Positions 2,141 to 38,669 of a stretch of 40,003 nt of DNA are shown here, in pieces (positions within the stretch are counted from its first letter, which is position 1; each line of letters begins with the position of its first letter). The translations under genes were made by a program, and so were the position numbers. The notes below the pieces were generated by a model that was not told the DNA's origin, did not search any database, and saw only the letters and a program-made list of their open reading frames with translations. Origin of the DNA: a virus; the IMG/VR virus record IMGVR_UViG_3300021509_000004, positions 1-40,003 of that record. One strand, 5' to 3'.

Positions 2141-2965
2141 ATGATTAAGGGCGTTCGCTGCCCCGTAACAGGCGAAAAGGTTTCCACCGAAGATTGCCTC
2201 CGTTGTTCAGTAGAGTTTCCCTTTCGTTGCCCCTGGGACACAGTGACATTGGCGAGTATGTTACACAATCGGAATGTCAAGGGGCTGTCTGTTACGGAGG
2301 TGATGACCGACCAAATTCGGCGAAGTCTACTCACCCACCTTGTGGACTACTATATCGAGCCACAACACGGCTACTACTCGGCGCGGGGGCGGACGATACA
2401 CGACGGACAGGAGATAGCCGCAGCGAAGTTTCTGACCGATGAAATCGAGGTAGAAACCGAAAAGCGGCTAAGCATAAATGTCGGTGGCTTTGACTTGTCG
2501 GGGAAGTTCGACATATACTATGTGCGGCGGGGCTTACTTCTGGATTATAAAAGCACGTCCCGCATTCCAGAAGAGCCGCGTCCCAATCACATCCAGCAAC
2601 TTAACGCATATGTATATATTCTGCGAAAGAATGGCTACACCGTCAACGAGGCGGGCCTGGTATATATGACTTTCTCTAAGGAAGAGATGATGCCTGTGGA
2701 GATATGGCCGCCCGATGAGACGGAAGCGTTGCTGGAGGAGTTAATTCCCTTTTATGTCGAATATCTCCACAAGCATAAAGTCCCTCCGCGCTCAGCCTGT
2801 GTTGATGCGCAGTCGGCTTGGGTTTGTCGTTTCTGTCCGTTTCAGCGCTTTTGCAAAGAGCACCCTACGGAATTTGTTCTCCCTGAGAGGTGGTTGAGTG
2901 ACGAATGGAGGGAGATATGGGCAAATGTGTTCGATACCGCCACTATAAACGCAAAGCTGAGTTAA
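2141..2965 (+). CDS. Cas4/RecB-type PD-(D/E)XK nuclease with Fe-S cysteines
   Basis: The 274-residue protein carries the RecB/Cas4 nuclease motifs: H87 in RGRTIHDG, D124 in GKFDIYY, D135-Y-K137 as the (D/E)XK motif, and Q-L-N-A-Y as the downstream QxxxY-like motif. C-terminal C229-x2-C232-x5-C238 has the spacing of the [4Fe-4S]-binding cysteines of Cas4 and AddB proteins, whose fourth ligand is an N-terminal Cys. The N-terminus holds C7, C19-x2-C22 and C30, more than a single ligand would need, so a small zinc-binding element is also possible. Family members are exonucleases that process DNA ends. Lying between helicase and primase genes, it is probably the phage replication/recombination exonuclease. 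There is no CRISPR array in the window, so a CRISPR adaptation role is not supported. Confidence 0.85.
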   Translation: MIKGVRCPVTGEKVSTEDCLRCSVEFPFRCPWDTVTLASMLHNRNVKGLSVTEVMTDQIRRSLLTHLVDYYIEPQHGYYSARGRTIHDGQEIAAAKFLTDEIEVETEKRLSINVGGFDLSGKFDIYYVRRGLLLDYKSTSRIPEEPRPNHIQQLNAYVYILRKNGYTVNEAGLVYMTFSKEEMMPVEIWPPDETEALLEELIPFYVEYLHKHKVPPRSACVDAQSAWVCRFCPFQRFCKEHPTEFVLPERWLSDEWREIWANVFDTATINAKLS

Positions 2966-9159: not shown

Positions 9160-12100
9160 TTACCTCCTATACCGCAAGCACGCAAAGACGGTTTCAACCC
9201 AGTCTAGACAGGTGGCTTCTGCCATACCTTGCAGATAGACATAAATTGTGCTTCCGTTTACGTCCGGGATGTCGGCGAAGACAAACCCGGTTACCATCGG
9301 CCACCAATCGCTGCCGCCCGCTATGCGCTGATGGTTGACAGTAGCATAATAGTGATTGCTGCCATTATAGTAAATACGGAAACGAAAGCCCACGCGATAG
9401 TTAGTGCCCCACCCGCTGAGGGTACGCATATATGTGCGGTGTATTAAGAACCAACGTTCGTTCGCATAAGTAGTGGTAGACCACGTAAAATACCAGAGGT
9501 CATACCACGTCCACCCTGCGCCGGGGCTTTGGTTACTGTGGCTAACCCAACGCCATTCGTTAGCATAATACCCTATATGTTGCTGGCCCTGAAAACTGCA
9601 CTGATATGAACTATCATAACGAGCAACAAGAATGTCGGGCTGGAAACTATACCGCCACTGCGACCCAAAGCACACATCGAGGTGATTGTCCGATTTCAGG
9701 TAGCTTAGATAATCGCCGCTATCAAACGTAATTTGGGGCGTACCTGCATTACTAAGATTTAAAAGGTTTCCGTAAAGATTGTACGCATAAAGATTCGCCC
9801 ACCGATAGCCACTACTGCCCAGGCTGCGGGCATTGTTTGCGTTGGGTATAATGTCAACATCCAAAGCGGAGGTTAAGTGTTCATTCGATAGTCCGCCGTG
9901 TGCTTGTGTGCAGACATAGTGTGCATCGCTAGGCGCGCCACCGCCACCACCTACATCTTGCGGTTCCCACTGACTAGCCCCGCTATTCCACACAAGGGCC
10001 TGTCCATTTGACGGGGCGGCGGAAGCCACCGTCCGTCCTTGCAGACGGTTTGCATTCCATTGGGCGGTATCCTTTCCGACTTGTGCAGCGGTGACGTTGT
10101 GGGGGTTAGAAGTATTAGCAACGTGGCTGTCGTGCGCCGACTTCAGCGCGGCAACATCTACACCGTCCACCGTGCCGGAGACAGTAATGTTGCCCGATAC
10201 GTCGAAGTTTTTGTGGCACTTAACCTGATTGCTAAGCCACTCGAAGATAGTTTCAGTGGTAGGGTTCTCGCCGTCCCCGCTCAGGAAACGCACATAGCCT
10301 TGTGCACCTGAAGGCGCGCCGCCTGCATTGTAATCGCCGAAGTCAAGGTAGAAGCAGCCAGGATGCAGGCTATGTGATGGGCCAAAGACTTGCACTTCAG
10401 CGCCGCGCCAACCTGCGCCGCCCAACAAAGCTACGCGCCCTTCCAATCCTGCGTGAGCGAGATACTCATCGCTAATGTATAGCCCCTCTGCCCCACCGAT
10501 GTACGTCACGAAACGGTTGTTGGCCTTGTCATAACGAAACTCGTCATTGCCGTCCACCCAAATCGAAGGGGTAGAAAGGGGCGTTAAGTCAAGAGCGTGC
10601 GCGTTAATATATGCACGGGTTGCGCCGTCGGCATAAAATTCAATACGTTTGTTAGTATTGTCCAGGAAAACGCACTGGTCGCCGCCCCAAATGTGGCTAA
10701 CGTGTAAACTGTCCCAACGGTGGGCAGCGTCACCTAAACCGCGCGTCAGGTCGGCGTCAGGTATAATGTTAACATCAATCTGCTGGATTAAATGCTCGTT
10801 CGTTAGCGTGCCATTGGCCTGTGTTACCACATAGTGGGCGTCAACAGGTGCGCCACCGCCGCCGCCCGCGCTAAATTGTGTCCAGCTATTGCCACTATCT
10901 TCTGTCCAGAGAAGATGTCCACCATCAAATCGAATCGCAGCCCAATGGCTTACTCCCTGGTCATAAAAGCGTATGTCAGCGTGGTCGTGGGTTTGCAGCC
11001 AGTTAATATGCAAATCAGCGCCACGCATACGCACTTCGCCGCCGAATTGCACAACATCATTAAGTCCTTCCGTGTAGATAGCGTAGCGCGTGTTGCCCGA
11101 TAGAGTGGGAATATAAAGGCCGTAGCACGTATTGATTGTGCCATAGTTTGCAACCGCTACTCCCCGGAAAAGCCAAACATTCTCGACTGTCCCGCCCAGG
11201 TGATTAACGTAAGCGGCTATTGCTGCCCCATCGGTAATAGTTCCGGCAGCAGCAGTTTTCTCAAATTCGCCATAAACTCCCGTTACAGCTTGAATAGTTC
11301 CGGCCCCGCAGTGGTGAACATAACCTAAAACACCCGTCAATGACCCAGGGATGTTTTCGTCAGTTTTGGTAGTCTGCGCCGCTGCTAATATACCACGGTA
11401 ACTTGCACTGCTCGACCCACTAGGCGAGGGCTGAATAACAATAAGTGCGCCGCGCTTATCGCCCGATGTGGCAGGGCAAGTCCAGCGCACCTCCAGCGTG
11501 TCGTGTAGTGTAATACCATCAGCGCTCAGAACAGCATCGCCACCAGCGAAATATGCTTTACCGGTTGCAGCGTCAATCCAAAACTCTTTGGTGGTATCAT
11601 TCCAGCCCAGGATACCATCAGGTGTTAATTCGACATAGGCGTGGTCGTCATAAATGGTTTGCTTGTTAGTTAGGCCGCCATAGCTGTCGCCAGGCCAGCA
11701 GAATGTAAAGTAAGCCCACTTCTTTCCATCATCTTTCCACGTCGAGTTACTATAAGCTGCGCCACCAATATACAGGGCCGCCGCCGTCCACGCATTGCTC
11801 TCTGCTTTGGTATCATCAATATGGCCGCTCTCCGGTTCTTGTCCGTGCCAGTAGTTAAGCTCGGAGGTCATATTGGTTTGAATATCGCCGAGCTTGTTTG
11901 TACCCGCGTAATTGTCAATAAGCCAGGCGGCCAGAATTAGGGAGTAGGTAGCGAGAGGCGAGCCGAACGATTGTCCCCAATCGCTATAATGGTTATTAAC
12001 GTCATCAATTAGTTGGGTGCATTCGTCCCGGTCAGATGTGTTGTTGGTATAGTAATACTTTGTGGCGTACAAGACGGCAACGTTTGCCAGTCCTCGCGCC

Positions 12101-28884: not shown

Positions 28885-30747
28885 CTACTCTTGTACTTCA
28901 GTCGGAAGGTTTGGCCCCATCGGGGATGCTGGCGGAGGTGGCGCAGCACCCTGGCCCCCTCCTGCACCTAACGTTACCTGTGCTAGACGCCGAACAAGGT
29001 CGGGTGTCGTAGGCTCTTGTCTGCCCGCCTGCCGGAAGGGGAAGGTTTGGGCCGGAAGCCCGGCTTCAGCCCCCGCCTGGAAAATTGCACCCTGCCTGGG
29101 CTTTTGCGCTTGACTGCCCATCAGTTCCTCAAGGATGGGCAAGCCCGCTTCCTGTGCAGCGTCCATCATCAGGGCACTCTTGATGGCGGGCATTTCCAAC
29201 AGGGTCTCGATAAGAATCTGGTCTTCCTCTTGCTTCAGGCTCTGCGGGCTTAGGTCACGGAAAGTCTGCTGAATGATGTCACGGGCTGCCCGCTTAGACA
29301 TAATGTTTAACTGGACAAGCGCCGTCAACATCGCCACCACCGCAGGTTCATCCGTGGGCAAGCTAGCCGACAGCTTGACCCTGTTGCGATAATAACCCCC
29401 GATGGTCTCCGCGTCTAACAGCGTCTCAATGGGCGTCCCATCGGGCATTGTTCCCCAAATGTAGATAGGCTTGGTCACGCGCTTCTCTACAATGCGGAGG
29501 AACATCTCATTCATCTTTTCCAGCGCCCGCTCGATGTTCATCTGCTTGAAGGCAATCTTCATCAACACGGGCGTGCGCAACAGGTTCATAGCCACGCCAG
29601 ACAAGCGGCTAACGGTCAACTGTCCGAGGACGTGGCGCGGCAAGGCTGCCTGCTCAAACTGCCCTAGTATCTCTTCAATCTGGACATCTACGCTGCTGAG
29701 TGCCTGGGTCGGTGGCTGAAGATAGTAAGCATCCTCCTCCAACTCCAGGGGAAGCTGCCCACCATACAAGCCGGTGCCCTCAAAGCCCCGGCCCTCCATC
29801 GTCTTTGTAACCAGGGTTGGGTCAGCAAAGCGGGCAATAATGGTAGCTTTTTGAGAGAAAAGCTGACAGATGTACCGAATCAGTCCCTCGACGGGCCAGA
29901 GAACACTTACGCCTATGCGCTCGCCCTTGTTCCTGTAAGGTAGCTGGATACCGAAGAAAACCACGAACGGGATTTGCCCTAATTCGTGTTCCGTAGGCTC
30001 TTGCAGCCAGCGCACTTCGCCCGGCACATCGGCTTCCTCATCTCCATACAAGCCGTATGGGGCAATACCGGTGGCAAAGTGCTCGTTGTCCCAATAACCA
30101 ATGACCACGACTTTCTGTGTGTCCTCCAGGCCCTCCAAGGCTTGGGCAGCAATGCGAGTTGTGCGTAGTCGCCCGTCTCGCCCTTCAACGAACGTCCGTC
30201 GCAACTCGCCCACCAGTCGCTCTTCAAGTAGAATTACATACGACCACTCGCCCGGCTTATCGGAGGGCATAGGATAGAAGTTCAAGGGGTCAATAGCCTT
30301 GGCATACAGGGGACACTCGCCCCGGTCTTCGGCATCCGCATCATAGACAATCTGCAATACTCCCCAGCCTTCGGCCAGTGCGTGCCACAATGCATCCTGA
30401 ATTGCCCCGTTGACGTTGTTGTACTCCCACAGGGCATACAACATCTTTTCAATGGCTTCCGCCTGTTCCTGATGCACGGCCTGAATAGCCGAGGTCGGGA
30501 CAGTGATAAGGGGAGGCCGGGAGAGTAGCATTGTCCGATAGCCTTCAACGGTAGCATACCCAAGAGGAATGTTAATGCGCGTCTCCTGGTCTTCTGGAGG
30601 AATGTAAGCGCCGTTTTCGTCCACCCAAATGGATTCTTTATTACACAGCGCCAACGACCTCCAGACTTGCATATTGATGTTACGTTGGGCATAGAAGGCT
30701 TTTAGCTTTCGTGCTAATTCTAGAATTTCGTTTGTGGTAAGTTTCAT
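28885..30747 (-). CDS. Portal protein, 620 aa
   Basis: The gene follows the large terminase gene with an ATGA overlap, the canonical order. The 620-residue product has typical portal features. An N-terminal helical and beta region is followed by the segment IPFVVFFGIQLPYRNKGERIGVSVLWPVEGLIRYICQLFSQKATI (about 265-310), the conserved patch before the stem helix. Long helices then run around residues 380-440 (LSGVAMNLLRTPVLMKIAFKQMNIERALEKMNEMFLRIV), like the crown/stem of P22-like portals. The C-terminal region is Gln/Pro/Gly-rich. It forms the dodecameric channel for DNA packaging and ejection. Confidence 0.9.
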   Translation of the reverse strand: MKLTTNEILELARKLKAFYAQRNINMQVWRSLALCNKESIWVDENGAYIPPEDQETRINIPLGYATVEGYRTMLLSRPPLITVPTSAIQAVHQEQAEAIEKMLYALWEYNNVNGAIQDALWHALAEGWGVLQIVYDADAEDRGECPLYAKAIDPLNFYPMPSDKPGEWSYVILLEERLVGELRRTFVEGRDGRLRTTRIAAQALEGLEDTQKVVVIGYWDNEHFATGIAPYGLYGDEEADVPGEVRWLQEPTEHELGQIPFVVFFGIQLPYRNKGERIGVSVLWPVEGLIRYICQLFSQKATIIARFADPTLVTKTMEGRGFEGTGLYGGQLPLELEEDAYYLQPPTQALSSVDVQIEEILGQFEQAALPRHVLGQLTVSRLSGVAMNLLRTPVLMKIAFKQMNIERALEKMNEMFLRIVEKRVTKPIYIWGTMPDGTPIETLLDAETIGGYYRNRVKLSASLPTDEPAVVAMLTALVQLNIMSKRAARDIIQQTFRDLSPQSLKQEEDQILIETLLEMPAIKSALMMDAAQEAGLPILEELMGSQAQKPRQGAIFQAGAEAGLPAQTFPFRQAGRQEPTTPDLVRRLAQVTLGAGGGQGAAPPPPASPMGPNLPTEVQE

Positions 30748-32138
30748 CTACCAATACTCCACCGGCGGCGTGGTCGTATTGCTCTCCGTTTATCAGGACG
30801 AATACCCCGCCAACCAAATTTTGCTACCAAGAAATAAATAACCGCCTTAATCAGGTGATTATATTCATCCACAGGATTTCCGGCCAAATCCTCGCGCGCC
30901 CCCGTTCGCCGGGGATACGCATAACGCTTGGTTTCCATCAGGAAATTGTGACACCTGGGATGAACGACAAACTGCCGTTTACTTATGAACGTGCGCAACA
31001 GGTCATTCCCAGGCTCGACCGGAACGGCGTGAATATGTAAGGGAATGCCAGCTAACCTCCACAACTCCCGGCTTTCCTTGTTGGCCTTGTCAATAGCCCC
31101 GCAAAATCTCTCGCCCCCATACTTCAGGTTACGGAACCAACGCCGCTGGCGTAGTTCTGCAATGAGAGTAGGTGTAGCTTTGCCGCTCTTGTCATAAAGT
31201 TCGTCAAACAGGCAAACCACATCGCCCCGGCCCTCCACGAACTTAACTTGAAGAGCGGCAATAGCATAAACACCGCCGGGGTCAACGCCCAGGTAAACGG
31301 GGAGGTGTGGGTCAAACTCGGCCAGTTCCGCGTCCACGTTTTCAACGAAGTTGAAGTTGCGCAGAACGAGACGAGTGTTAGGCTTGGGAATGGCCTCAAA
31401 CCGGGCAGCAAACAAATCGGGGTCATAGTTCTTACGCTGTTCCTCTAGCCACGCCTTATCCACATAGGGGTTGGCAGACGTAGGGTGGCGGAAACTCTCA
31501 ATACCCCGCTCGTTTGGCATTTGCCCGATGTACCAGTAATCCTCAAACCATTTGCCAATAAGGGTGTCCTCGAATGTCCCCAGGGCAGCAATCCAGCCGC
31601 CGGTAACTGTCAGACGTGGAACAAGGGAGACCTGGTAAATCTCAAACGGCACCAGACCTCCCTCGTCTATCAGAATCCAGTCGAGGGGTTGTGCGTGTAG
31701 TGCAGCCGGTTCGTCCGCCGATTTGACCCACAACTCAGCACCAGTCCAGACGGTCAAGTGGTGAGTTTTCTTTGCCCAATGAAACTCACCTTCCCTCAGC
31801 GCCCCGCCGCGTGATACCCGCTTAAATCCGAACATTTCTAACACATTGAATATTTCTTGGGTAATCGGGTCGGCCAGCGAGTAACGCGGGACAACAATCC
31901 ATCCCCGTCGGCCTCGCGCCGCGCCCAAGGTTGGGTCATAAATGGGGACGACAAGCTGCGGAAAAACTTCCCTCGCTCCACAATATGTTTTGCCGCTTTG
32001 ATTACCTGCCCCGAAGATTCGATGTAAAGCCGTGCTGCGATGAAACGGCTCTTGTGCACCAAACGGCTCATAACCTATCGCTTTATACAACGGGGCTTTG
32101 ATTGACCAAGGTATATGAGCACGTGATTGGTATGCCAT
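30744..32138 (-). CDS. terL: Terminase large subunit, 464 aa
   Basis: The ATPase domain shows Walker A GAGNQSGKT (about residues 42-50), then a strand WIVVPRYSLADPI and Walker B WILIDEGG (about 155-162), followed by a coupling motif in WIAALGTFED. The C-terminal RNase H-like nuclease domain has YLGVDPGG (first acidic residue), the CGAID strand (second) and DEYNHLIKAVIYFL (third). It cuts concatemeric DNA and pumps it into the procapsid. It overlaps the upstream basic protein gene by TAATG and the portal by ATGA. The basic C-terminus (RPDKRRAIRPRRRW) could contact DNA or the portal. Confidence 0.95.
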   Translation of the reverse strand: MAYQSRAHIPWSIKAPLYKAIGYEPFGAQEPFHRSTALHRIFGAGNQSGKTYCGAREVFPQLVVPIYDPTLGAARGRRGWIVVPRYSLADPITQEIFNVLEMFGFKRVSRGGALREGEFHWAKKTHHLTVWTGAELWVKSADEPAALHAQPLDWILIDEGGLVPFEIYQVSLVPRLTVTGGWIAALGTFEDTLIGKWFEDYWYIGQMPNERGIESFRHPTSANPYVDKAWLEEQRKNYDPDLFAARFEAIPKPNTRLVLRNFNFVENVDAELAEFDPHLPVYLGVDPGGVYAIAALQVKFVEGRGDVVCLFDELYDKSGKATPTLIAELRQRRWFRNLKYGGERFCGAIDKANKESRELWRLAGIPLHIHAVPVEPGNDLLRTFISKRQFVVHPRCHNFLMETKRYAYPRRTGAREDLAGNPVDEYNHLIKAVIYFLVAKFGWRGIRPDKRRAIRPRRRWSIGR

Positions 32139-32359
32139 TACTTCCGTCGTTTGGCTCTACGACTGCGGCCTCTAGCCGCCATCTTCTGGAATCGCTTCTT
32201 TCCGTATTTCTTTCGTCCAATCCAGGCAGCAAGCGCTTTGGGGTTCTTAGCACCACGCTTCTTCAGGGCCGCAACCAACTTCTTAAAGCGCGTCCCTTTA
32301 CCCACAGGGCCGGTTGCCTTGTACCTGGATGTGCTCTTCGAGCGTCGTCTTCGTGCCAT
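32138..32359 (-). CDS. Short highly basic protein, 73 aa
   Basis: About two fifths of the residues are Arg or Lys. The middle segment KNPKALAAWIGRKKYGKKRFQKMAARG carries a pattern found in many short phage proteins of unknown function encoded near terminase genes. A second short basic protein with a related K-K-Y-G-R/K-K motif lies upstream at 34954. It may bind DNA in the head or assist packaging. It is translationally coupled to terL by a one-base stop/start overlap. Confidence 0.65.
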   Translation of the reverse strand: MARRRRSKSTSRYKATGPVGKGTRFKKLVAALKKRGAKNPKALAAWIGRKKYGKKRFQKMAARGRSRRAKRRK

Positions 32360-32368
32360 TTTTATTTC

Positions 32369-32491
32369 TCACCAATCGTCATAAAATCCGTCGTGGCCTT
32401 CGCCTACCAGGAAACCAATTATCACACAAATGATTAGGGCGAAGACCAGAAATACGCCAAATGCGGCGAATGCATCAAATTCTCCGCCCAT
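32369..32491 (-). CDS. Tiny single-TM protein, 40 aa
   Basis: The start at 32491 (MGGEFDAFAAFGV) follows AGGAGGAGGGCTATA; the longer open frame to 32566 has no such signal. The product has a short acidic N-terminus, a hydrophobic helix of about 22 residues (GVFLVFALIICVIIGFLVG) and a short tail rich in Asp, Gly and His. It is one of two tiny membrane peptides encoded back to back downstream of the metalloprotease gene (TAATG overlap), so a joint membrane function is plausible. Confidence 0.6.
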   Translation of the reverse strand: MGGEFDAFAAFGVFLVFALIICVIIGFLVGEGHDGFYDDW

Positions 32492-32592
32492 TATAGCCCT
32501 CCTCCTAGAAGTAACGCCGAACATCCGAGGAAGATGATAGCCCCAACGAAGGCCAGAACTACCCACGCCATAAAAGCGCGTCCACCGACCAT
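32491..32592 (-). CDS. Tiny single-TM protein, 33 aa
   Basis: This open frame begins at ATG 32592 (MVGGRAFMAWVV) behind AAGGAGGGGGCA and ends with TAA overlapping the next start. It translates to a short basic N-terminus, a hydrophobic helix of about 20 residues (AWVVLAFVGAIIFLGC) and a glycine-rich end; the last codons supply the ribosome binding site AGGAGGAGGG for the next gene. It lies eleven bases after the metalloprotease gene. The good ribosome binding site and tight coupling argue for translation in spite of its size. A C-A/G context near the helix end could suggest lipidation, but no proper lipobox is at the N-terminus. Confidence 0.55.
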   Translation of the reverse strand: MVGGRAFMAWVVLAFVGAIIFLGCSALLLGGGL

Positions 32593-32602
32593 TGCCCCCT
32601 CC

Positions 32603-34438
32603 TTACGTCTCGAAAGGTGTCAATTGGTCTTCACCCTCGTCTTCCTCCACGGAATCTTCACAGTGCCCAGGGTCAATTAAGTTCAAGAACCAACAGATGA
32701 TTCGGTAAAACTTCACCTTGTCTTTGAACTTCCCCAACCGGCTCGAAATCGTTTCATCGGGGTCGCCGAAGAACAAGGTATTGAAAAATTGGTCAACGCT
32801 GATACAAAGATTGATGAAGTAGTGCCAGGCGAATGCCTTAACCTTGGCCCACCACGACTTCTTCCTGACCTGCCACTCGACAATCACTAATACAACCGTT
32901 ACCAGCGGCAAGACCGGGAACACATTCACGCGAGGCTCTTCAGGCGGTTCGTCAAAGGTGAAGGGTACAATTTCGTCATAACCCCCTTCGGCGCTAGTCT
33001 GAGGCATCAGCTTGAGATTCAGCAGCTTCCAAACAACAGGCCCAACATCCTCGAACTCCATCTCGGAAACTTGCGCCCCAAACCCAAAATAGAAAACAAA
33101 GAATATCATCATATCGCCGCCTTCGAGGATGTCGTTGATGTCCATCGCCCAGGTAAGGTAGCGGCAAGGTACTCCCGCTGCTTTAGCCTCAATAACCTGA
33201 AGCGGCCCATAGAGATATTCCCACCAAATGGGGGCGAAATGTTCGGGGTCTTCGCGCATTTTGTGCTCAAATTCAGCCTTGTGCGTATATTCGCCCTTGT
33301 AGATGGCCTCGGTATAAGTTTTAAGATAGTCGCGCTCGCCTGGCTTGATTGTCCAATCTATGTACCAATAATTGGGGCCGAGGAGTTTCCGCAAAACCTG
33401 GTAGCTTACTCCCAGCTTGTGTAGAATGTGTGCAGGCCGAATGTGAATACCATTAACGCGAAGGTTGAACTTCCACCGCACAAACGCCTCAGTGAACTTG
33501 ACGAACGGGTCTTTAATCATAGGCTCAAAATCCAAGAGCCTGGAATGGCCGGTCAAAACCCACCATAACGAGTGGAATATGGATGGCATAGCGTCCTCGA
33601 AATCATAAGTCATCCAGGACATAGGAAGATGCTCATCGTCCTCACCAGCATACCACCGGAGGTTGTAACCGATATGCCGTGCCATTCCCAAATTAACGGC
33701 CCGCCACCCGTGGTTGTAATACACCCTATACTTGGCGGCGCAGAGGAACCACGAGCGGAGTTCATCCCAAAAGGCGAAGTTCGCGCCGGGGTAGCCATCC
33801 TCTGCCATATCATACAAAACCTGCAAAGTAAGCAACTGGCAAAGAATCTCCCCCGTCCCGAAGTTCAACGCAGAGTGGTTCATCTCGTGGACGAGGACGG
33901 CCAGAAAGCTATCTTTCCCGCGCACATACTCGCGGAAGAACGACATATTGATAGTAATGCTGCGTTCCAAATAACAATAATATGCGATGGGGAGGTCATA
34001 ACGCCCACTTCCCTTCTCCGGCCAGAAGAATTTTACCTCATCCACAGCAACCGGGCGTCCGATGGCCTTCTCATAGGCGTTGATGTATGGAATGATGTCC
34101 TCGACCATCTGGAGGATTGCGGCCTCGTTTTTCGGGTTGTGTGGCCCCTCTAGCTCATAATACATGTCGCGCATCGCATCGGCATATAGCGCTGCCTTGA
34201 GATAGTCCAGCGTTGTGGGCCACTTAATTCCCATCTTGAATGACATCCGTTCCATAAACGGGTCAACAAGGTAAACGCCCGGCTCGGTAATGTACCCGAC
34301 CTCCGTGTTATAGCCCTGGAGAGTGCGGTAGGTTAGAATTTCGACTTCGTTCGGCCCCACAACCGTAAGGCCCTGGGCTGTGAATGTCCCTACGGTCACC
34401 AGAAGAACGAGAAATACCCGCACCAGAATTTCTTTCAT
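32603..34438 (-). CDS. Membrane-anchored zinc metalloprotease-like protein with SPFH-like N-terminus, 611 aa
   Basis: An N-terminal hydrophobic segment (residues 6-20) could be a signal anchor. It is followed by VVGPNEVEILTYRT ... EPGVYLVDPFMERM, which resembles the start of SPFH/band-7 proteins (V-x-P-x-E-x-G-V ... P-G-L-H-x-x-x-P-F-x-D). The catalytic zinc motif is H184-E-M-N-H188 in the helix FLAVLVHEMNHSAL, with E197 (GTGE) as a possible third ligand. The body (200-490) is helical and Trp/Tyr-rich. A second transmembrane helix lies at about 505-523 and an acidic C-terminus closes the protein. It sits between the two terminase genes. Its substrate is unknown; host envelope proteins or the phage virion are possible. 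The SPFH likeness is weak and needs a profile search. Confidence 0.7.
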   Translation of the reverse strand: MKEILVRVFLVLLVTVGTFTAQGLTVVGPNEVEILTYRTLQGYNTEVGYITEPGVYLVDPFMERMSFKMGIKWPTTLDYLKAALYADAMRDMYYELEGPHNPKNEAAILQMVEDIIPYINAYEKAIGRPVAVDEVKFFWPEKGSGRYDLPIAYYCYLERSITINMSFFREYVRGKDSFLAVLVHEMNHSALNFGTGEILCQLLTLQVLYDMAEDGYPGANFAFWDELRSWFLCAAKYRVYYNHGWRAVNLGMARHIGYNLRWYAGEDDEHLPMSWMTYDFEDAMPSIFHSLWWVLTGHSRLLDFEPMIKDPFVKFTEAFVRWKFNLRVNGIHIRPAHILHKLGVSYQVLRKLLGPNYWYIDWTIKPGERDYLKTYTEAIYKGEYTHKAEFEHKMREDPEHFAPIWWEYLYGPLQVIEAKAAGVPCRYLTWAMDINDILEGGDMMIFFVFYFGFGAQVSEMEFEDVGPVVWKLLNLKLMPQTSAEGGYDEIVPFTFDEPPEEPRVNVFPVLPLVTVVLVIVEWQVRKKSWWAKVKAFAWHYFINLCISVDQFFNTLFFGDPDETISSRLGKFKDKVKFYRIICWFLNLIDPGHCEDSVEEDEGEDQLTPFET

Positions 34439-34774: not shown

Positions 34775-34815
34775 ATGTCACCTCCAAATTACTGAATCTC
34801 GACCATCCCGCAAGG

Positions 34816-34886
34816 TGGAGGAGAAGGGAATCGAACCCATACCTGCGGCGTGCAAAGCCGTTGCACTCCCATTATGCTACTCCCCC
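34816..34886 (-). tRNA. tRNA-Ala (anticodon TGC)
   Basis: Read on the minus strand, the acceptor stem GGGGGAG pairs with CTCCTCC including one G-U. The D arm GCAT/GTGC, anticodon stem CGGC/GCCG with loop TTTGCAC, and T arm around TTCGATT complete the cloverleaf. The T stem has one T-T mismatch. The anticodon is TGC. The discriminator is A and the full CCA is not encoded. It lies five bases from tRNA-Trp. Confidence 0.92.
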
Positions 34887-34891
34887 ACAGG

Positions 34892-34963
34892 CAAGGAGGG
34901 CAGGATTTGAACCTGCACTGCCGGTTTTGGAGACCGGTGTTCTGCCAATTAAACTACCTCCTT
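34892..34963 (-). tRNA. tRNA-Trp (anticodon CCA)
   Basis: On the minus strand the acceptor AAGGAGG pairs perfectly with CCTCCTT, the anticodon stem CCGGT/ACCGG carries loop CTCCAAA, and the T stem GCAGG/CCTGC encloses TTCAAAT. The D stem has three pairs. The discriminator is G and CCA is not encoded. Its 5' end overlaps the last ten bases, including the stop codon, of the basic protein gene at 34954. Confidence 0.93.
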
Positions 34964-35112
34964 CTGCGTCGTTTCTTCCGGCGAGACTTGCGCACAGCAG
35001 CGGGCCTGGTCGCGGGATGGCCTTTGGCTTCCATCGCGTAATATATTCTTTCGCCTTTCTTTCTACCGTACTTTTTCTTCAACTTGCGCATTAACGTTTG
35101 GTTGATAGGCAT
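34954..35112 (-). CDS. Short highly basic protein, 52 aa
   Basis: The start MPINQTLMRKL at 35112 lies in an ATGA overlap with the terminase small subunit gene. The sequence LKKKYGRKKGERIYYAMEAKGH is a pattern seen in short phage proteins of unknown function; the tail is a run of Lys and Arg. It ends with TAG inside the acceptor/D region of tRNA-Trp, so tRNA processing would cut the message just at the stop codon. A DNA-binding or packaging role is possible. The other basic gene at 32138 has similar composition. Confidence 0.65.
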   Translation of the reverse strand: MPINQTLMRKLKKKYGRKKGERIYYAMEAKGHPATRPAAVRKSRRKKRRRRR

Positions 35113-35675
35113 CAGTCTTCCCCTTGCACATCGGGCATATCGTCCTCGTCGTGAACCTCTTGCATTTCGGACACACCCGAATCTTCGAGCAGTTGCCAAT
35201 CCTCCGCTTCAACTATCTCTCCTTTCGCCACGCCTTCCAATGCAGGCGAGATGGTCTTAAAAACACGCATCCAATTGGCCCCGACATCCCTGGTAATCTC
35301 CATCTTGTTTTGGAAGGTCGGGTCAGCCATTGCCTGCAAGAGAAGTTTTGACGCCGCCAACGCCACGCGCTTATTCTGGTCTTGGTCGCGCAACTCAATC
35401 AACCGCGCCAGCGAGCGGGCTGCTTCCTCCTTAGCCTTGCTCTTGATAAGCTCGGTTACCTCAGTCCGAACAACTCTGTCCCACCAAGCCTTGAACAGAG
35501 CGTTCTTCGACCAGGTATACTTGACCGTCGCCGGAGAAACTCCCGCTTGTTCGGCTGCCCACTCCAGGTCAGGGCATTGGGCGTAATAGAAAAGAAAAAG
35601 CCGCTGCGCCGGAGTTAGGGCAGTCAAATCCATTGTCTCGTCAACAGGTACAATCGCTTTTGCTGCTTTAGTCAT
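35112..35675 (-). CDS. terS: Terminase small subunit-like protein, 187 aa
   Basis: The segment LTPAQRLFLFYYAQCPDLEWAAEQAGVSPATVKYTWSKNALF (about residues 20-60) is a helix-turn-helix domain of the type in phage small terminases, where it recognises the packaging site. A long helix follows (TELIKSKAKEEAARSLARLIELRDQDQNKRVALAASKLLLQ) that would form the oligomerisation core. The C-terminus is acidic and may contact the large subunit. The start lies in AT-rich sequence without a clear ribosome binding site, just after a terminator hairpin, so an alternative start cannot be excluded. Its separation from terL by 3 kb is unusual. Confidence 0.75.
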   Translation of the reverse strand: MTKAAKAIVPVDETMDLTALTPAQRLFLFYYAQCPDLEWAAEQAGVSPATVKYTWSKNALFKAWWDRVVRTEVTELIKSKAKEEAARSLARLIELRDQDQNKRVALAASKLLLQAMADPTFQNKMEITRDVGANWMRVFKTISPALEGVAKGEIVEAEDWQLLEDSGVSEMQEVHDEDDMPDVQGED

Positions 35676-35715: not shown

Positions 35716-36774
35716 TTAACGAATAATGTGAACGTTGGCGTAATCGCCCTCGAAACACCAGGCTATACCAAGAACGAAAACTTGATAAACAATATCTCGT
35801 CCCTGCTTGTTTGTCCGAATCTCGCCGGTCAGGGGCATCCCTAAACCGTGACGGATGGCAGCCTTTGCCAAAGCCGCGTTCGGGTTATAGGGAATCTCAC
35901 CCCAGGGGAGATGATTCCAGGCCCAGTTGCGTAGAGCTTCTTCCAGCTTACCGTAATCAAATTCGGGCACCACATCTCCCAAGGATTTAATATGGTCACC
36001 CAGCGTCGCTGCCACGTGCGCGCTCAGGTCGAAAGAAGCCCATTTCCTGTCGAACGTTCCATAACAAAATACACACGCCCCAAATACCCTGGGGTCTTCC
36101 ATCAGCGCCTGGTCGAGACTGATGAGTTGCCAGATATACTCGGTATCTATCCAATACTTTCGGTAACCTTTGTACGGGCCGCCGCAATCTACCCCGCACT
36201 CCGTCAGGATGACCGGCTTCTCTACTCCCGCAGTTTCCAACAGTTTTCGATAGCGAAAAGTCGTCCAGTCATCTCCGACGGCCTGGGGACAGCCATAACC
36301 GTGATAGCCAAAGTAGTCTGCAACCTCGATGGCCGGGGCAAAATGCTGCATCAGGCCGATGTCCGCCGGGTTGCCAACGGCGAAATTGCCCACGATGGCC
36401 CGTAGCCCATATTCGTGCATCGCCTCCGCCCAAGTCTTTTCAAAACGCGCCAACCGCTTCATCGAGGCTGCCGAACCAACCACCGGCTCGTTAACGCACT
36501 CCCAGGCATCTATACGTCCGCCGTGCAGCCCGGAGAGTTCGGCCATCTTCGCCGCCAGCGTCCTGGCATTTCCCTTCGTCCATTCCCAATAGTCTACGTC
36601 GCCCTGGCCGTAGTAGCGAGCAATCAGAAAAACGTCATCGGGAATATCCCAATCGGTGAAGTCCTTGTCGCTGACGATGACAATTTTGAAAACGCGCGGG
36701 TGAACGTCTTTAACCCACGACAGTGCCTTAGCATCAACGGCCAAGGTCTGTACACCTAATTTGCTTCTTCTCAC
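35716..36774 (-). CDS. Clan GH-A glycoside hydrolase-like protein, candidate endolysin, 352 aa
   Basis: The GTG start at 36774 follows GGAGGGTTCAG and overlaps the previous stop (GTGA). Residues 1-270 form a TIM-barrel-like domain. RIDAWECVNEP carries E96, the acid/base glutamate of the NEP motif. PVILTECGVD carries E192, the nucleophile position about 96 residues later, the layout of clan GH-A. YFGYHGYG and the W-rich end fit barrel strands. A C-terminal domain (about 275-352: IPYNPNAALAKAAIRHGLGMPLTGE ... YQVFVLGIAW) resembles substrate- or wall-binding modules attached to hydrolases. No signal peptide is present, so export would need a holin. It may cleave peptidoglycan or another envelope sugar polymer. 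Confidence 0.75.
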   Translation of the reverse strand: MRRSKLGVQTLAVDAKALSWVKDVHPRVFKIVIVSDKDFTDWDIPDDVFLIARYYGQGDVDYWEWTKGNARTLAAKMAELSGLHGGRIDAWECVNEPVVGSAASMKRLARFEKTWAEAMHEYGLRAIVGNFAVGNPADIGLMQHFAPAIEVADYFGYHGYGCPQAVGDDWTTFRYRKLLETAGVEKPVILTECGVDCGGPYKGYRKYWIDTEYIWQLISLDQALMEDPRVFGACVFCYGTFDRKWASFDLSAHVAATLGDHIKSLGDVVPEFDYGKLEEALRNWAWNHLPWGEIPYNPNAALAKAAIRHGLGMPLTGEIRTNKQGRDIVYQVFVLGIAWCFEGDYANVHIIR

Positions 36775-36956
36775 CTGAACCCTCCTCCGTAATATTCATA
36801 CGGGTCGTCCGGGCTTTGCGGGCCAAGCTCATTTCGCGGCGCGCCCCTTATGAATTCAAACGCCAAGTGTAGAATGACTGGCCAGCTAAGAATGAATAAG
36901 CAAAAGAGAATTGGCCCAAGTATGCGACACCAGAGAAACCGCAAAATTTCTACCAT
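36771..36956 (-). CDS. Small membrane protein, 61 aa, coupled to the glycosidase
   Basis: The start chosen is ATG 36956 (MVEILRFLWCR) preceded by AGGGAACAT; an open frame further upstream lacks a ribosome binding site. One long hydrophobic segment (about residues 6-36, ILGPILFCLFILSWPVILHLAFEFI) is followed by a Gly/Tyr/Asp-rich tail. It ends in a GTGA overlap with the glycosidase. A membrane protein directly before a cell-wall hydrolase could be a holin or antiholin, or a lysis partner. It is the first gene of the leftward late block. Confidence 0.6.
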   Translation of the reverse strand: MVEILRFLWCRILGPILFCLFILSWPVILHLAFEFIRGAPRNELGPQSPDDPYEYYGGGFR

Positions 36957-37077
36957 ATGTTCCCTCCCCCTTGACTTGCGACTGCCGCCGATGTCTTGCG
37001 CTTTTTGTGTGACTAACTTACTTGACATAACTTCTCGTCACCTAGCTAGACTTCGACGGTCTTGCCCCCTAGCTTGT

Positions 37078-37118
37078 CATCCGCGCCGCGCAGCACTTAA
37101 TTCGGTGCGGCGCGGATG
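37078..37118. repeat. Perfect 12-bp GC hairpin
   Basis: CATCCGCGCCGC (37078-37089) is perfectly complementary to 37107-37118 around an AT-containing loop; GCAC/GTGC can close the loop further. Its ATCCGCGC core recurs in the next hairpin. Confidence 0.8.
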
Positions 37119-37125
37119 CTTGTCA

Positions 37126-37158
37126 ATCCGCGCCATTCATTTCATTCATTGCGCGGAT
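37126..37158. repeat. 8-bp hairpin sharing the ATCCGCGC core
   Basis: ATCCGCGC (37126-37133) pairs with GCGCGGAT (37151-37158) across a loop made of ATTC/ATTT repeats. With the preceding hairpin this gives four copies of the same 8-mer, two in each orientation, within 80 bases, like binding-site iterons. Confidence 0.7.
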
Positions 37159-37159
37159 G

Positions 37160-37276
37160 GGCGGGCAGGCGAGATTCTGCTAACATTTGACTTCTTGCAT
37201 AGCATCACGCCCGCGACTGAGGCGGCAGCCGAATCGCGGGCGTGATTGCACGCTAACCGCATCTCGCCTGCCCGCC
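37160..37276. repeat. Nested dyad: 16-bp outer and 13-bp inner perfect arms
   Basis: GGCGGGCAGGCGAGAT (37160-37175) is perfectly complementary to 37261-37276. Inside it, ATCACGCCCGCGA (37204-37216) is perfectly complementary to 37234-37246, with a 17-base loop. GCTAAC occurs as a direct repeat next to both outer arms (about 37178 and 37252). It could extrude as a cruciform or fold as an RNA with two coaxial stems. Confidence 0.85.
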
Positions 37277-37373
37277 ATTGGAAAAAATATTCACTCTCTC
37301 TATATACTACTAACATTGAAGCATTTTTATGTAAAGTAAAGAGTAGACATAAGTGACGAGTTTTGATTGTATG

Positions 37374-37433
37374 GCGAAGAAAGTCCCTTCAGGTGCGTGG
37401 GCTGCCGCCCACCTTCTTCGGGACTTTCTTCGC
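37374..37433. repeat. Perfect 14-bp hairpin with inner 6-bp stem
   Basis: GCGAAGAAAGTCCC (37374-37387) is perfectly complementary to 37420-37433. Inside, GTGGGC and GCCCAC form a second stem with a four-base loop. There is no T-tract on either strand, so it looks more like a structured RNA than a terminator. Confidence 0.8.
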
Positions 37434-37460
37434 AACTTAGATTTGCTTTAGTAATTTTGA

Positions 37461-37498
37461 AAGCTATGAAAGTTTCGTTATGCATTCTTGCATAGCTT
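37461..37498. repeat. 8-bp hairpin AAGCTATG/CATAGCTT
   Basis: AAGCTATG (37461-37468) pairs with CATAGCTT (37491-37498). The flanking CTTAG (37436-37440) and CTAAG (37500-37504) can add an outer stem. It directly follows the 14-bp hairpin. Confidence 0.6.
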
Positions 37499-37523
37499 GC
37501 TAAGTGCCTCGCCTTGTTTAGCT

Positions 37524-38025
37524 TGTCACACAAACAGGGCCTTGCATTTCGCCCATCTCTCGCAAATTGCCCCCCGCTTTGTGGGAAAATCCTACAAATT
37601 ACGGGCGTAATTTCCGCGACTTGCCCTAAATCTCAGCCGAATTTCACCCAACTTTGGCCTGATACACCGTCCACCATCACCATCGCCAGCGCCATCACCC
37701 CCCATCATCGCCGCTCGCTCGCCAACGCGGGAGGGGCGGAGGAGGCGGGGGGTAGCTATGCCTTGATGTTGAGCAGGCAAGTCAAGACATTGGCCTTTGC
37801 GCTATGCTAGATTTTTGACGGTAGGGAAAGGGAAAGCTCGACCGTCTTCTGTGTGCTATGTCACACAACAAGGCCAATTGCTTTTTGCCTTTGCTAGTCT
37901 AGACTTTGGCCTTGCCTTTGCTATGTCCAAAGCTTGCTCTGTTTGTGTGACAAGCTTGACAAAGCAAGGCAAGGGAAAGGCCAAAGCTTGCTATGCTTGC
38001 CTTGCTTGCTATGCTTGTCACACAA
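37524..38025. repeat. Four copies of TGTCACACAA (iteron-like)
   Basis: Copies lie at 37524-37533, 37859-37868 and 38016-38025 on the plus strand and at 37943-37952 in inverted orientation. The second and fourth share the 19-base block TGTCACACAACAAGGCCAA. Three of the four lie within 170 bases. They may be binding sites of a phage initiator or regulator. Confidence 0.65.
37986..38017. repeat. Direct repeat GCTTGCTATGCTTG, 18-bp period
   Basis: Two exact 14-base copies (37986-37999 and 38004-38017) are separated by four bases. They belong to a wider family of CTTGC/CAAAGC elements in 37780-38040. There is no regular repeat-spacer pattern, so this is not CRISPR. Confidence 0.7.
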
Positions 38026-38184
38026 CAAGGCCAAAAGGCCAAAGGCGTGTAAATACCTAAACCGTTTTAGATGATATATAATTGGTGTGGCCAACAAAGT
38101 CAAAACATAGCGCAAAGCACAAAACAAACGTCAACCGTATTCATACGATTTAGTATAAATTTGCCCAAAAACGGCATTTTTCAC

Positions 38185-38213
38185 TTGACAAGATAAACAA
38201 AAAGTGCTTAAAT
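38185..38213 (+). promoter_or_regulatory. Candidate sigma70-type promoter of the right-end operon
   Basis: A consensus -35 TTGACA (38185-38190) is followed after 17 bases by TTAAAT (38208-38213), four of six matches to TATAAT. The gene at 38268 starts about 50 bases later, behind a short GGAAAC/GTTTTCC hairpin and AGGGGG. The surroundings are AT-rich. Confidence 0.45.
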
Positions 38214-38267
38214 ATAGGTGGCCAGAATAGGAAACGCGCGTTTTCCTTCACGAAAGGGGGTAGAATT

Positions 38268-38669
38268 ATGTTAAGCTTAAAAACGCATATAACTAGATGG
38301 AATAAACAAGATTTAATACTTGCCTCTAAACTTCAGCAAAAGCACATTGCGCTATTAAAAGCTTTTGGCGTTAACTATATTGACCATAGCGAAAGCAAGC
38401 TCAAACGTCTAAAGAAGAAAGTTAACAAGGGAATGGTAAAGAAAGCGATAACAAGAGGTTACCTCTTTGAGGTTCATAATAATAGAGGCAAAGCTTTGCG
38501 CTATTGTTATCGCTATGGTGTTACCTGTATAGCAATAGAGGCAAGCGAAAAAGGCATAACTGTTATAACTGTTTGGCATAACGCCAAAGACGATAATCAC
38601 GAAACCTTGAGACAAGGCCAATACAATTGCCAGCTAACTGATATAGCGAAAGCTTATCAGTTATGTTAA
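38268..38669 (+). CDS. Basic hypothetical protein, 133 aa
   Basis: It is the first gene of the rightward right-end block, with AGGGGG eight bases before its ATG. The first half is helical and Lys-rich (LILASKLQQKHIALLKAF; KLKRLKKKVNKGMVKKAITRG). The second half alternates beta strands (YLFEVHNNRGKAL, VTCIAIEASEKGITVITVWH). A helix-plus-beta basic protein at the edge of an iteron-rich region might bind that DNA; this is a guess from position. Codon use is AT-richer than in the other modules. No family is recognised. Confidence 0.65.
   Translation: MLSLKTHITRWNKQDLILASKLQQKHIALLKAFGVNYIDHSESKLKRLKKKVNKGMVKKAITRGYLFEVHNNRGKALRYCYRYGVTCIAIEASEKGITVITVWHNAKDDNHETLRQGQYNCQLTDIAKAYQLC

Follow-up and report, generated by a model that had tools for sequence, protein, structure and literature searches.

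A membrane metallopeptidase-like gene between the terminase genes

The window, by which we mean the whole 40,003-nucleotide stretch of viral DNA analyzed here, carries on its minus strand an ORF that is open over all 611 amino acids and starts at an ATG preceded by a strong purine-rich ribosome-binding site (RBS), agggaggggagATG. The first-pass annotation had called this ORF and placed it between the terminase genes, and both statements hold, since a TerS-like gene and TerL flank it (Table 1). Two tRNA genes, tRNA-Ala (tgc) and tRNA-Trp (cca), also sit between TerS and TerL (window 34814-34963), in the packaging region and on the late-gene strand. Just ahead of TerL, a 73-aa very basic (K/R-rich) peptide is encoded at window 32138-32359 and is kept in the related contigs L003 and L004. 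For the TerL and DNA polymerase of the window, matches are remote only and spread over many hosts.

Table 1. Features of the protease gene and its surroundings (window coordinates)
Feature	Position	Strand	Basis
Terminase large subunit (TerL)	30744..32138	(-)	phrog_2, E=2.2e-28
40-aa hydrophobic peptide, holin-like candidate	32369..32491	(-)	strong RBS; starts at TAATG overlap
33-aa hydrophobic peptide, holin-like candidate	32491..32592	(-)	strong RBS; kept in L003, L004, L005
611-aa membrane metallopeptidase-like protein, whole ORF	32603..34438	(-)	open frame, ATG, RBS, purifying selection
phrog_3342 domain, residues 536-606	32621..32833	(-)	E=3.7e-15, model 6-80 of 90; stand-alone relatives
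Second hydrophobic segment, residues 504-524, predicted C-in	32867..32929	(-)	Kyte-Doolittle; 5 K/R in next 16 residues
Residues 263-480, family-specific, without known relatives; 263-395 least conserved large region	32999..33652	(-)	conservation, searches
Aspzincin-like core, residues 150-220 (strand, HExxH helix, third-ligand turn)	33779..33991	(-)	PF14521, 1g12
E197, proposed third zinc ligand	33848..33850	(-)	aligned with Asp130 of 1g12/1ge6
HEMNH, residues 184-188	33875..33889	(-)	two zinc His and catalytic Glu by homology
Residues 25-65, claimed earlier as SPFH-like start	34244..34366	(-)	without profile support
N-terminal hydrophobic segment, residues 3-22, predicted signal anchor (N-in)	34373..34432	(-)	Kyte-Doolittle, flanking charge
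Terminase small subunit (TerS-like)	35112..35675	(-)	phrog_2538, E=3.3e-4
Glycosidase-like probable cell-wall hydrolase, co-occurs with protease gene	35716..36774	(-)	NEP and ECG motifs, by eye
85-aa protein, one hydrophobic segment, 4-base overlap with hydrolase gene	36771..37028	(-)	ORF call

Relatives of the protease were found in seven IMG/VR contigs besides the window. Identity to the window protein is 90% for L002, 86% for L003 and L004, and 67% for L008 and L009; among the partial relatives, L021 is 82% identical over its piece and L005 is identical over its 85 residues. Comparison with L003 gives dN/dS values of 0.06-0.11 per region, which indicates purifying selection. The homologue most distant from the window protein is 82% identical to it over residues 160-215 and 54% over residues 263-395. 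For the first ~525 residues, scans of annotated phages, plasmids, and genome contigs revealed no relative within their reach, and a scan of the genome contigs with the hydrolase likewise turned up no distant cellular relative. Plasmids and annotated phages (40 of 60 phage matches listed) match the C-terminal domain of the protease only.

A putative zinc site resembles that of the aspzincins

The protein had been annotated as a membrane metalloprotease on the strength of HEMNH at residues 184-188 and of E197 as a candidate third ligand. The positions are exact, and H184, E185, H188, and E197 are identical across the homologues aligned over the motif region, so that the HExxH and third acidic ligand typical of zinc peptidases at the clan level are present by sequence and alignment. 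An HExxH appears in 3.3% of shuffles of the protease sequence, and in the window set (38 genes, 12,164 aa) 0.38 copies are expected and 1 is found. Since HExxH alone is thus weak evidence, conservation and profile searches are needed to decide. The extended pattern HExxH-x6-T-x-[DE] occurs in no other ORF at the 74 phrog_3342 loci examined outside the protease family.

Searches with the full window protein against Pfam, NCBIfam, and PDB returned nothing useful, including no family match for the N-terminal part, and a profile of residues 76-262 gave only noise against PDB; the zincin matches emerged once the 71-residue stretch 150-220 was searched in isolation. When this stretch of three homologues was compared with Pfam, all seven rows were metallopeptidases, with nothing else up to E=10. 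Aspzincin_M35 (PF14521) matches with E=0.029 for the window, 0.0084 for L002, and 0.0017 for L008, followed by SprT-like (E=0.054, 0.015, and 0.021, respectively) and, for L008, M50B (E=0.0026). Across four phage genomes, PF14521 yields one match each, always in the protease core region (E=0.0026 for the window, 9.9e-4 for G001, 3.8e-3 for G002, and 1.5e-4 for G003), and it matches in only 1 of 14 control genomes. These matches score 13-19 bits, below the curated PF14521 cut-off of 30 bits, and all other zincin scores are likewise below cut-off. Two other zinc-peptidase profiles, PF13485 and PF06114, have no match in the phage genome.

The M35 aspzincins, represented by deuterolysin and by 1g12/1ge6, are the best PDB and Pfam match of the isolated core. 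The top PDB entry is 1g12, a peptidyl-Lys metalloendopeptidase (E=0.81 for the window fragment, 0.92 for the L008 fragment, and 0.44 for a four-row profile). Each of these matches is weak by itself, but in the alignments H184 and H188 fall on residues 117 and 121, and the alignment with the window additionally sets T195 on T128 and E197 on D130. In the structural description given in PMC3268031, the ligands of the 1g12/1ge6 enzyme are His117, His121, and Asp130, the carbonyl of Thr128 is hydrogen-bonded to His121, and Asp154 is hydrogen-bonded to His117. The phage protein shares the HExxH, an acidic ligand nine residues past the second His, and a Thr two residues before that ligand, which makes the proposal of E197 as third ligand probable; the invariant D225 could be the counterpart of Asp154. 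In the account of M35 in PMC7215534, the third-ligand Asp lies within a GTXDXXYG motif. The corresponding stretch reads GTGEILCQ in the window and MTGESLCQ in L008, with Glu at the same spacing and YG missing. We therefore call the protein "aspzincin-like" rather than a member of M35, because its third ligand would be Glu instead of Asp, YG is missing, the scores are below cut-off, and the AlphaFold models are poor. Fungal M35 enzymes, as presented in PMC7215534, are predicted to be secreted, whereas the phage protein is predicted to be membrane-anchored and is fused to a phage domain.

For the whole protein, AlphaFold2 with five sequences gives a mean pLDDT of 34.6 (low confidence), and for residues 76-262, it gives a mean pLDDT of 53.6 and a pTM of 0.55 (also low confidence). 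In the latter model, the HExxH ends a helix (178-188) that is preceded by two short strands, and the next helix runs from 196, with E197 at its start. This geometry is compatible with a zincin at a confidence too low to count. Fold searches with these low-confidence models gave no significant structural match; the VIA fold-search rows, which reach a Z of 3.2 at most, were set aside. Altogether, the motif, its conservation, and the Pfam and PDB matches of residues 150-220 make it likely that the protein is a zinc peptidase.

Predicted membrane topology and the small membrane peptides

Hydrophobic segments had been noted at both ends of the protein, and a Kyte-Doolittle scan with a threshold of 1.6 locates them at residues 3-22 and 504-524. 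Residues 1-8 contain 2 K/R, compared with 1 K/R and 2 D/E in residues 23-38, the second segment is followed by 5 K/R in 16 residues, and the outer flanks of both anchors are acid-rich. Because K/R would thus lie inside and the acid-rich flanks outside, a two-anchor topology with N-in, ectodomain out, and C-in is the probable arrangement, with a weaker hydrophobic patch at residues 437-455 as a caveat on this prediction.

Just downstream lie two tiny hydrophobic ORFs, which the first-pass annotation had suggested as partners of the protease. They are real candidates, with strong RBSs and with the stop of the 33-aa peptide and the start of the 40-aa peptide overlapping as TAATG, but they do not travel with the protease gene. 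Both are kept in L003, L004, and L005, close relatives in which the entire region is shared, and neither was found in the partial contigs of the other two protease-carrying phage types.

The C-terminus is a phrog_3342 domain

The C-terminal ~70 residues of the protease belong to phrog_3342, a family of widespread small phage proteins whose function is listed as unknown in PHROGs. The match covers most of the model, and the protease carries the signature DQ..N...GDPDETISSR.GK ... HC..S.E.DEG; the near-invariant residues of the family lie in DQ..N, G.PDET.SSR.GK, H, and E.DEG, with ETxSSxxxK imposed by the search pattern itself. phrog_3342 proteins share their conserved residues with the protease but normally stand alone, whereas the protease carries the domain as a C-terminal fusion. 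The architecture of anchor, aspzincin-like ectodomain, anchor, and phrog_3342 is real, and we found no existing name for it.

By tblastn, the phrog_3342 region matches at least 60 phage records and 15 plasmid records, and a viral scan returned at least 80 loci. Among 80 listed loci, 6 are protease relatives, 1 is a fusion to a GH19 lysin (L086), and 1 is a longer ORF with a doubtful start (L037); 72 remain, all of them small ORFs (48-109 aa). In the fusion (L086:5980-7164), phrog_3342 forms the N-terminus of the GH19 lysin (PF00182, E=1.2e-9), which ends in a C-terminal hydrophobic segment; this is a second, independent architecture of phrog_3342.

We examined the neighbors of phrog_3342 in 19 annotated records (15 phages and 4 plasmids), picked from the match lists to avoid near duplicates. 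The commonest neighbor type is a tail-fiber or fiber-assembly gene. A lysis gene lies within two genes in 6 of the 19 records, namely Percy, KSC, PBR31, mumin6-4, and Marinomonas YY by annotation and X1 by our own reading of its next gene, which looks like a GH19-type hydrolase. Of these, Percy and KSC belong to the same genus. The other 13 records have no recognized lysis gene within that distance. In four records (Percy, KSC, BUCT-ZZ01, and ctOsX528), phrog_3342 lies shortly ahead of the terminase genes. In the tailless corticovirus Marinomonas phage YY (L117), the phrog_3342 gene directly follows a peptidase M15 gene, and its annotation as "DNA helicase UvrD" is probably a mis-annotation.

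For an enrichment test, the 80 listed loci were reduced to 74 without the six family loci and to 65 after duplicate removal, and neighbors of 50-600 aa on the same strand were considered. Within the top 25 Pfam families, the near set contains M15_3 (2/115) and Muramidase, Amidase_2, Phage_lysozyme, M15_4, and two holin families (1/115 each), and the far control contains Amidase_3, Amidase_2, and Phage_lysozyme (1/115 each). Lysis families amount to about 7-10/115 near phrog_3342 versus at least 3/115 in the far control. PHROG endolysin families appear in the near list only, among the best 25 of 180 and 25 of 203 families. The top Pfam neighbor is DUF4376 (12/115), often found beside tail fibers. 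The excess of lysis genes beside phrog_3342 is small and suggestive only.

The protease gene is accompanied by a probable cell-wall hydrolase gene

The probable hydrolase is the sole window gene seen alongside the protease in all long records compared. A scan with the hydrolase found three viral contigs, all of which (3/3) also carry the protease. The label "cell-wall hydrolase" is given because a SpoIID domain (PF08486, E=3.5e-22) is inserted in its homologue P0002 and because glycosidase-like motifs were read by eye; the window hydrolase has no PDB or Pfam match of its own, and its fold is without support. In L002, the P0002 gene starts at 9839 and the protease gene ends at 9842, a 4-base overlap. 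P0002 itself (L002:9839-11425, 528 aa), with SpoIID inserted in a glycosidase-like protein, is an unusual two-enzyme cell-wall hydrolase. In the window, the 85-aa protein encoded at the 4-base overlap with the hydrolase gene is a possible lysis partner.

When 46 greedily called window genes were compared with G003, a 61-kb phage, only two matched, the protease at 67% and the hydrolase at 52%. Against G001, eight genes match, with the protease at 90% identity and TerL and portal at 29%. Because its TerL and portal are only 29% alike, G001 is taken from these comparisons as a distant relative of the window phage. Given that G003 shares only protease and hydrolase, and that the G001 protease is 90% identical versus 29% for TerL and portal, the protease gene appears to move horizontally. 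The G003 copy is ~46 kb away from the hydrolase gene and has a Neck1-like and a tail-terminator-like gene as its neighbors. The ORF after the G003 hydrolase (L107:8837-9418) has a coiled-coil-like end and a C-terminal hydrophobic segment, by eye resembling the holin-associated XhlA, and has no match in Pfam.

Proposed function and alternatives

The ORF, its motif and conservation, the zinc-peptidase profile similarity, the phrog_3342 domain, and the co-occurrence and exchange with the hydrolase are backed by the data. Beyond these, we infer zinc binding, catalysis, topology, timing, substrate, and a role in lysis. The protease would be a late phage protein, anchored in the host cytoplasmic membrane by its two hydrophobic segments, with a ~480-residue middle part outside the membrane that bears the aspzincin-like zinc peptidase site (H184, E185, H188, and E197) and with the phrog_3342 domain on the cytoplasmic side. 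Late in infection, it would most probably cleave at least one host envelope protein, be it a surface-layer, lipoprotein, or membrane-linked cell-wall protein, which would let the phage's own cell-wall hydrolase work and the cell be opened. As such, the protease would be a host-specific lysis accessory, exchanged among phages together with the hydrolase.

We favor this reading of a portable late envelope or lysis accessory protease tentatively, as a whole giving it somewhat less than an even chance. The co-occurrence and exchange with the hydrolase, the 4-base overlap in L002 (G001), the GH19 fusion in L086, and the 6/19 lysis-adjacent records speak for it; the sub-cut-off scores, the poor models, the placement in G003, the 13/19 records without a nearby lysis gene, the smallness of the lysis-family excess, and a hydrolase label based on one homologue's SpoIID domain and on motifs read by eye speak against it. 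A more specific version, which we place on the unlikely side, is an extra lysis factor besides holin, endolysin, and spanin. Its aspzincin-like ectodomain would cut a protective protein of the host envelope, its inner phrog_3342 domain would link the protease with the machinery of lysis or late assembly, and the factor would move between unrelated phages paired with a host-suited endolysin.

A functional precedent for a protease that helps lysis is the Mtz/Tim pair of phage origin in Listeria, in which a secreted metzincin zinc peptidase raises sensitivity to phage lysins, as described in PMC8235301. It resembles the window protein as a phage-derived zinc peptidase, and it differs in belonging to the metzincins and in having an inhibitor-like partner; the abstract of PMC8235301 describes no such membrane-anchor fusion. 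Among the titles and abstract openings by which the literature was judged, we found none on aspzincin/M35 in phages.

Lysis by tailed phages is usually explained by three protein classes: holin, endolysin, and spanin. If the favored reading is true, a membrane-anchored protease exchanged with a cell-wall hydrolase adds a proteolytic step to lysis, and the widespread phrog_3342 family gains a testable context.

Two alternatives concern what kind of protein this is. It could be a structural membrane protein in which HEMNH arose by chance or has decayed, with the weak zincin matches as composition effects. The number of HExxH copies expected in the window proteome (0.38), the sub-cut-off zincin scores, the replacement of the M35 GTxD by GTGE in the window and MTGE in L008, and models without a known fold would fit such a protein; however, homologues, libraries, and PDB agree on the kind of enzyme and on its residues, and few regions are conserved as well as the core in the distant homologue, which leaves this explanation unlikely. 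The other alternative goes back to the first-pass annotation, which had seen an SPFH/band-7 start at residues 25-65 and hence a fusion of an SPFH domain with a metalloprotease; such a fusion would regulate FtsH-like quality control. The resemblance to HflK/HflC, an N-terminal anchor followed by a beta-like stretch, is by eye only, without a tool result and without profile similarity. Band_7 (PF01145) has no match in the phage genome at E<=10, although all 14 control genomes match, and residues 20-80 alone, taken from the window protein and from its L008 homologue, have no Pfam match up to E=10. With searches of both genome and fragments empty, an SPFH domain in the protease was dropped, and the fusion to it is highly improbable; the fusion found instead, overlooked in that annotation, is of the protease to the small phage protein phrog_3342.

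Two further alternatives keep the enzyme and change its task. Acting late in the host membrane, it could destroy a receptor or an injection factor and so exclude superinfecting phages. Membrane anchoring with an outward active site would suit this task, as would the passage of the gene between phages that may share a host; against it, the gene sits among late virion and packaging genes, and co-inheritance with a cell-wall hydrolase would be uncalled for, which makes exclusion quite unlikely. We judge it just as improbable that virions carry the enzyme and eject it along with the DNA to clear a way through the envelope on entry. The packaging and portal gene neighbors and the G003 copy between Neck1 and tail-terminator-like genes point that way, but a pair of anchors whose flanks are oppositely charged fits a protein that resides in the membrane, and PHROGs searches gave no similarity to known ejection proteins.

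Other features of the window

Between divergent gene blocks, a TTGTCACACAA-like word recurs at scattered places in window 37000-38300, in direct and in inverted orientation; this stretch is a possible regulatory or origin region. At window 2141-2965, a phage-type Cas4/PD-(D/E)XK-type nuclease is encoded (phrog_1706, E=2.1e-19).
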